45,887 bases of DNA, taken from IMG/VR virus record IMGVR_UViG_3300035698_018734, positions 1-45,887 of that record, one strand, 5' to 3'. Shown here piece by piece: positions 1 to 409 of this stretch. Origin of the DNA: a virus. A program made the position numbers and the translations under genes. The notes under the pieces are model-generated. The model was not told where the DNA came from. It searched no databases and worked only from the letters and a program-made list of their open reading frames with translations. Position 1 is the stretch's first letter; every line of letters starts with the position of its first letter.

Positions 1-22
1 GGTTCGAATCCTTTTAGGTGCT
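1..22 (+). tRNA. 3' end of a tRNA (partial, cut by window edge)
   Basis: The first bases read as the 3' half of a T-arm (GG-TTCGAAT-CC) with the conserved TTCGAAT loop, followed by a 3' T-stem strand and a seven-base acceptor strand (TAGGTGC) plus a discriminator T. No CCA is encoded. The anticodon lies outside the window, so the amino acid is unknown. It sits about 50 bases before a gene with two in-frame TAG codons, so its anticodon matters: CUA would make it an amber suppressor. That link is inference. Confidence 0.6.
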
Positions 23-70
23 TTAAAGGATTGTTTACGACTACGACGAAGATAATAAAGGAGATTTATT

Positions 71-409
71 ATGACATTTATGTAGAACAAAAATTATATT
101 TATGTTATTACAAGGCTTGATTTATCATTTTCTCAACAAGCCGTTCAAGCTGCTCATGCTTGTATAGGCTCTTCTCAACAATTTATTCCTCCATAGATAC
201 AGCATCCTCATCTTGTATTATGTACAGTAAAAGATGAATATTTGTTATTACGTGCAGCAGAACATATTGAAAGCTGTGGAGTAAAGCTTTATGCGTGGCG
301 AGAACCTGATAAAGATAATGAATTAACAGCGATTTGTACTGAACCTGTTTTCGGAAAACAAAGAAAATTATTTAAGAATCTTAAACTTTTACAAGGAGAA
401 TCAAAATGA
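71..409 (+). CDS. Pth2-like peptidyl-tRNA hydrolase with two in-frame TAG codons
   Basis: Starting at the ATG at 71, preceded by a strong Shine-Dalgarno (AAAGGAGA, 57-64), the frame runs 112 codons to a TGA at 407-409, broken only by TAG at 83-85 (codon 5) and 194-196 (codon 42). Read through, it gives a Pth2-like pattern: [20 protein letters not shown] is the family's N-terminal strand and helix, followed by HPHLVLCTV, a helix, and a closing FKNLKLL. Pth2 enzymes release peptides from peptidyl-tRNA; phage versions are uncharacterised. There is no ATG between the two TAGs and the second lies inside the domain, so a restart cannot rescue it. Both interruptions are TAG, with no TAA, TGA or frameshift, which favours amber suppression (for example TAG = Gln) over ordinary decay. 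A pseudogene remains possible. The stop overlaps the next start (ATGA). Confidence 0.7.

Follow-up and report, generated by a model that had tools for sequence, protein, structure and literature searches.

A start-proximal in-frame stop in a Pth2-like phage gene, possibly gated by a suppressor tRNA

How might a gene be expressed when its reading frame opens behind a good ribosome site and is then crossed by two stop codons? The question is raised by the first 409 nucleotides of the window, which is the entire 45,887-base virus record (IMGVR_UViG_3300035698_018734). A Pth2-like gene lies there at positions 71 to 409 on the plus strand, with a Shine-Dalgarno (SD) sequence, AAAGGAG, at positions 57 to 63 (plus strand), 7 nt 5' of the ATG at position 71. 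With both TAG codons read as sense, the frame runs for 112 codons and ends at a TGA at positions 407 to 409. With a probability that we put at roughly 0.8, this gene encodes a functional protein of the Pth2 fold, and its translation is gated by a start-proximal stop that a phage suppressor tRNA would read.

A Pth2-like frame crossed by two TAG codons

The first TAG is codon 5 (positions 83 to 85, plus strand) and belongs to the same position class as the stops of relatives described below; the second is codon 42 (positions 194 to 196, plus strand). Each is followed by an A. They are the sole interruptions before the TGA, and there is no frameshift. The original prediction of a Pth2-like frame of 112 codons, led by an SD sequence and interrupted solely by these two TAGs, was borne out by the sequence. 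The Pfam PTH2 profile (PF01981) matched residues 9 to 106, a range that spans the second TAG, with an E value of 5.5e-4 and a score of 20.6 bits (curated cutoff, 23); two relatives, the XacN1 fusion protein at 25.3 bits and L005 at 44 bits, score above that cutoff. The AlphaFold model of the read-through protein, whose C-terminal end is KNLKLLQGESK, had a mean pLDDT of 89.8, and Foldseek placed archaeal and human Pth2 nearest to the model (2zv3, 3erj, and 1q7s; E values of 3e-7 to 3e-6). A family profile built from the PTH2-like proteins also retrieved Pth2 chains in the PDB. The read-through protein is predicted from these results to have the Pth2 fold. The model puts codon 5 within the N-terminal tail and places codon 42 in the loop that joins helix 1 to strand 2, sites at which many residues should be tolerated. 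A relative, LR756501, has a second, mid-gene TAG in the same loop.

The catalytic lysine of Pth2 lies in a GKxAAQ motif. In the family alignment, this site reads QQAVQ (QQAVQAAHA) in most phage members, and the window protein has no lysine at that place; E78 and T86 are invariant in the phage alignment. Because the canonical lysine is replaced in the phage family, it would be unsafe to assume that these proteins hydrolyze peptidyl-tRNA.

Upstream of the gene, positions 1 to 22 (plus strand) hold the 3' part of a tRNA gene, consisting of the T-arm GGTTCGAATCC and the acceptor strand; it is cut by the contig end, with the anticodon beyond it. This stretch has a single exact match in IMG/VR, at the 3' terminus of the tRNA-Leu(caa) of L199. 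ARAGORN called no complete tRNA in the whole 45,887-nt window. Since the window thus holds no complete suppressor tRNA, we infer this key for the present phage, and the cognate tRNA of the window gene, on the proposed reading of the sequence, must lie outside the contig.

Elsewhere in the window, TAG ends the genes for NAD synthetase and for an HNH endonuclease, both full length, in agreement with the earlier remark that other genes here still end in TAG. The NAD synthetase gene adjoins one for nicotinamide phosphoribosyltransferase, and the two form an NAD-salvage pair (positions 3546 to 5521, minus strand). A TAG at position 13647, before the terminase gene, was considered and dismissed, the gap from it to the following start being short and ordinary. 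The portal-like gene (positions 26980 to 30924) carries an intein, with Hint and LAGLIDADG domains, plus a DUF559-type domain. A CRISPR-like array at positions 45338 to 45840 has nine copies of a GGTCCACCCCCGCACATACGGGGAATAC-like repeat, resembling type I-E, with a spacing of mostly 59 to 61 nt; its first copies are degenerate, it runs towards the contig end, and no cas genes were noticed.

A stop close to the start in relatives, and an HD-domain partner

Relatives were taken from IMG/VR and from GenBank phages, and profile scans of phage sequences gave the 104 distinct records on which the gate and anticodon counts are based. A stop 1 to 10 codons past the ATG was found in 93 genes of these records, 88 times as TAG and 5 times as TGA (59 TAG and 3 TGA in PTH2; 29 TAG and 2 TGA in an HD-domain gene described below). 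Twenty records were ungated. No TAA gate was found among the 104 records, though UUA (ochre) tRNAs occur. Such ochre tRNAs lie beside ungated PTH2 genes at L006:6601-6691 and L013:6670-6760 and in L404, and another is present in RAS14 at 302428 to 302502 (minus strand). The base after the gate stop was A in 62 genes, G in 28, and C in 3, a purine in 90 of 93 cases; a purine after UAG favors suppression. The peptides ahead of the PTH2 gate (MK, MKK, MKL, MCS, MAQ, MAH, MTH, MT, ML, and others, each ended by the stop) start at SD-led ATGs, and these leader reading frames are very short, mostly 2 to 4 codons, with good SD sequences. Among isolates, gates occur in Cronobacter phage GAP32, Serratia phage BF, Acinetobacter phage ME3, Salmonella phage Arash, Xanthomonas phage XacN1, Stenotrophomonas phage RAS14, and Tenacibaculum phage pT24; they are found also in metagenomic phages of 462 to 735 kb. 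As the first stop stands at the same place in relatives from dozens of phages, the gated stop is more than chance, and the start-proximal in-frame stop appears to be conserved across relatives of the window gene. A blind signature scan for gates was conservative and overlooked known ones (GAP32 PTH2, G001, and G010), so that absence in that scan, ungated loci included, is weak evidence. Gated genes are missed or given the wrong start in annotation: the BF PTH2 gene is unannotated, and in GAP32 and ME3 the annotated PTH2 starts lie downstream of the stop. PHROG 34073 (77 amino acids) and PHROG 26054 (46 amino acids) look like artifacts, namely, PTH2 and HD proteins cut at their gate stops.

Purifying selection acts on the sequence past the stop. 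Post-stop Ka/Ks values were far below 1 in most comparisons, including the stretch before any possible start codon. In BF and L055, the PTH2 stop is followed by 108 codons without a single ATG, GTG, or TTG, which rules out reinitiation at a usual start codon in those two.

A comparison of the whole genomes of G001 and G010 turned up a single convincing interrupted gene in addition to PTH2, an HD-domain gene near it. When unfiltered six-frame translations of GAP32 and BF were compared with TAG read through, the result was dominated by alternative frames of genuine genes, and a filtered scan for interrupted genes was used instead; in the genome comparisons, PTH2 and HD were the only convincing interrupted genes. 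The HD gate is start proximal in nearly all group A phages. In the GAP32 clade, the TAG lies further in, at codon 47 of a conserved protein, and the sequence on either side of it is under purifying selection. The HD domain is fused N-terminally to PTH2 in XacN1, RAS14, and L003 and C-terminally in pT24, each time with one start-proximal TAG, and the opposite orders argue that the two proteins form a single functional unit. The H...HD...H...D motif is retained in the HD protein, with H27, H79-D80, H100, D125, and H129 invariant. Its model (pLDDT of 95.3) had as its best PDB match an Aquifex aeolicus tRNA-processing enzyme, 3wfo (TM score of 0.62; E value of 4e-3), which was also nearest by sequence profile (E value of 2e-4), and the Pfam HD match reached just an E value of 0.016. 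By motif and predicted fold, the partner is probably an HD metal-dependent phosphohydrolase, and its presence in relatives strengthens the link between Pth2 and translation that had been drawn for the window gene. The HD gene was not found in the window, and an HD profile search of genome contigs returned two MAG contigs only. A third gated gene proposed at GAP32:311459 (ML, the stop, then NPSTGPP...) was rejected because in BF the frame breaks between leader and gene. The leader itself, ML followed by the stop and NPSTGPPDKFNSEQ, is conserved in GAP32 at 311459 and in G006, ahead of GAP32_440, and is perhaps regulatory.

Suppressor tRNAs and the proposed reading of the stop

Where a suppressor tRNA was seen near the gated genes, its anticodon matched the stop: 56 TAG-gated records had a CTA tRNA, 3 TGA-gated records had a TCA tRNA, and none was mismatched (Fisher p = 3e-5, a value that overstates independence, since only two independent pairs lie on supported branches). 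In the PTH2 tree, each TGA row stands alone among TAG rows (5 changes), giving 2 independent pairs on supported branches and 4 on all branches. A further TGA gate with a TCA tRNA is found in L040. G010 has TGA in both PTH2 and HD together with two TCA tRNAs, and in its relative G001 both genes have TAG, so that the stops of the two genes appear to have switched in concert. Full-genome scans recovered a CTA tRNA in gated GAP32, BF, RAS14, and LR756511, and a TCA tRNA in gated G010; ungated RaK2 and Hallingskeid had no suppressor tRNA. The 331-kb contig of G001 has TAG gates in both genes, yet the scans found no CTA tRNA in it; in all, 23 TAG-gated records, many of them contig fragments, lack one in the available sequence. 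The association of PTH2 with suppressors reaches beyond the gate, because 17 of the 20 ungated records still have a suppressor tRNA near PTH2 or HD and because mycobacteriophages Alice and Myrna have one near PTH2; in Alice the tRNA (cta) lies ~250 bp downstream. The Alice PTH2 start reads ATG TAG GTG (L202:3971-3979), with a plausible GTG start straight after the TAG, and is possibly a relic or an overlapping gate. In L056/G005, the PTH2 frame is apparently shifted just past MKSQETIINQ-TAG, and no suppressor tRNA was found in 165 kb, a possible case of PTH2 decay after loss of the key.

Several further observations concern these tRNA regions. The Arash tRNA at L057:5310-5384 was deposited as tRNA-Phe, and ARAGORN reads its anticodon as CUA. 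Permuted tmRNA genes lie close to PTH2 and HD at G001:109754-110086 and G010:198905-199249. The CUA suppressor tRNAs of XacN1 were published without their authors being able to identify target genes (PMC5852040); upstream of XacN1 ORF364 the sequence reads ATG AAG TAG, which makes that gene a clear candidate for their target. Phage Atu_ph07, which has a UCA suppressor (PMC6102473), was considered as a TGA case of separate origin and rejected: its Pth2 of the gp680 type has a canonical GKIAAQ with no gate seen, and a second Pth gene of that phage was looked for but not located.

TAG keeps its meaning as a terminator in the gated genomes, where it ends about 3 to 18% of genes. Since TAG still ends other genes, the gate is gene specific and the genome is not recoded. 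The suppressor decoding put forward in the original prediction, restricted to this gene, gained ground from the stop/anticodon covariation of relatives; the adjacent tRNA gained none as the suppressor, its anticodon being off the contig and its exact match being a leucine tRNA. TAG-terminated genes make up 3.1% in GAP32 and 2.7% in BF, versus 5.9% and 8.2% in suppressor-free RaK2 and Hallingskeid, and the base after terminal TAG in GAP32 and BF is mostly T; both the scarcity and the context rest on small numbers and are suggestive. In G010, TGA ends 54% of genes, so any suppression in that phage has to be weak or context bound.

Other ways of reading these stops were weighed. The stop might simply end a leader minigene, never being read, with the body translated by reinitiation or from a nonstandard start. 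Very short leaders with good SD sequences would suit such an arrangement, minigenes are a classic theme of Pth biology, and Alice has a usable GTG straight after its ATG TAG. However, BF and L055 offer no usual start codon in the body, reinitiation would require neither that the stop track the anticodon nor that TAA be avoided completely, and the HD TAG at codon 47 in the GAP32 clade has selection on both sides; we regard this reading as quite unlikely. For the window alone, a gene that holds two stops and lies at the extreme contig end, with the cognate tRNA absent from the contig, could point to gene decay or a consensus error. Yet the interruptions are all TAG with no frameshift, the first sits at the family gate position with an SD sequence and purine context, and the second has its counterpart in LR756501, which makes such an origin very unlikely.

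Leaky termination is a further option, in which near-cognate host tRNAs or host suppressors read the stop and the phage suppressor tRNAs are coincidental. The purine that so often follows the stop would serve it, as would G001, which is gated with no CTA tRNA found. It does not account for the perfect anticodon match wherever a suppressor is seen, TGA/TCA cases included, nor for ungated RaK2 and Hallingskeid being without a suppressor, and we give it little chance. Genome-wide reassignment of TAG, as in genetic code 15, has in its favor that CUA tRNAs are typical of TAG-recoding phages (PMC13037316). It is barely credible here, given the genes in the window and in gated genomes that end in TAG, the absence of conserved in-frame TAGs from other genes, and the restriction of convincing interruptions to PTH2 and HD in the genome pairs compared.

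A proposed circuit and its relation to known systems

The preferred reading, a stop-gated gene opened by a phage suppressor tRNA, would work as follows. Ribosomes would start at the ATG at position 71 and in most cases stop once the fourth codon has been translated; when the UAG at codon 5 is read by a CUA suppressor tRNA that the phage encodes, the protein could be made, and the window protein would need the UAG at codon 42 to be read as well. The arrangement would be an AND switch, requiring the mRNA together with a suppressor tRNA that has been transcribed, matured, and charged. In relatives, the HD partner, fused to Pth2 or encoded next to it and often gated by the same stop, would be released likewise. 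The Pth2-like and HD proteins might then serve in the maintenance or salvage of tRNA or peptidyl-tRNA during the time that the phage uses a tRNA set of its own, and their dose would follow read-through as in a sensor or feedback. We hold that suggestion only tentatively and think it rather doubtful; the role in tRNA maintenance that we prefer is the weakest step of the reading. Taken as a whole, it seems somewhat probable that large phages contain an undescribed natural circuit in which a dedicated suppressor tRNA unlocks a two-gene tRNA-maintenance module through an AND gate, possibly with a read-through feedback sensor.

If so, the circuit would explain the purpose of many orphan phage suppressor tRNAs and would be a natural counterpart of the synthetic suppressor-tRNA switch discussed below. 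Suppressor tRNAs occur in large phages of standard code, with targets unidentified (PMC5852040) or merely guessed to be many (PMC8504454 and PMC6102473). The gated genes offer concrete, testable targets in cultured phages: BF, GAP32, Arash, ME3, XacN1, and pT24. The open-access literature searched describes phage-wide recoding and orphan suppressors but yielded no account of a gene-specific suppressor gate, whose novelty is therefore provisional.

Several known systems are comparable in part. In the autoregulation of RF2 (prfB), an in-frame UGA is bypassed by a frameshift set by the RF2 level. That gene is likewise translation related, and its early in-frame stop senses whether ribosomes terminate or bypass it, but its bypass is a frameshift, whereas that of the phage gate would be an in-frame cognate tRNA. 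The Pth2 hydrolases (archaeal Pth2 and human Bit1/PTRH2) share the fold and several conserved residues with the phage family; they have GKxAAQ where most of the phage family has QQAVQ, and stop-gated expression is proposed for the phage genes. XacN1, with its orphan suppressor tRNAs (PMC5852040), is a phage of the same family as the gated phages. In phage stop recoding (code 15-like, in crAss-like and other large phages), a phage suppressor tRNA reads an in-frame stop, as proposed here, but the recoded TAG or TGA is spread across many genes (PMC9523058 and PMC13037316), whereas gated phages have it in one or two genes, mostly within the first ten codons, and the stop keeps its meaning elsewhere. 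The closest logic is that of an engineered coherent feed-forward loop in Escherichia coli, in which a stop-silenced gene is on only when a suppressor tRNA is coexpressed (PMC7969014). That loop is synthetic, whereas the phage gate appears to be natural and conserved.
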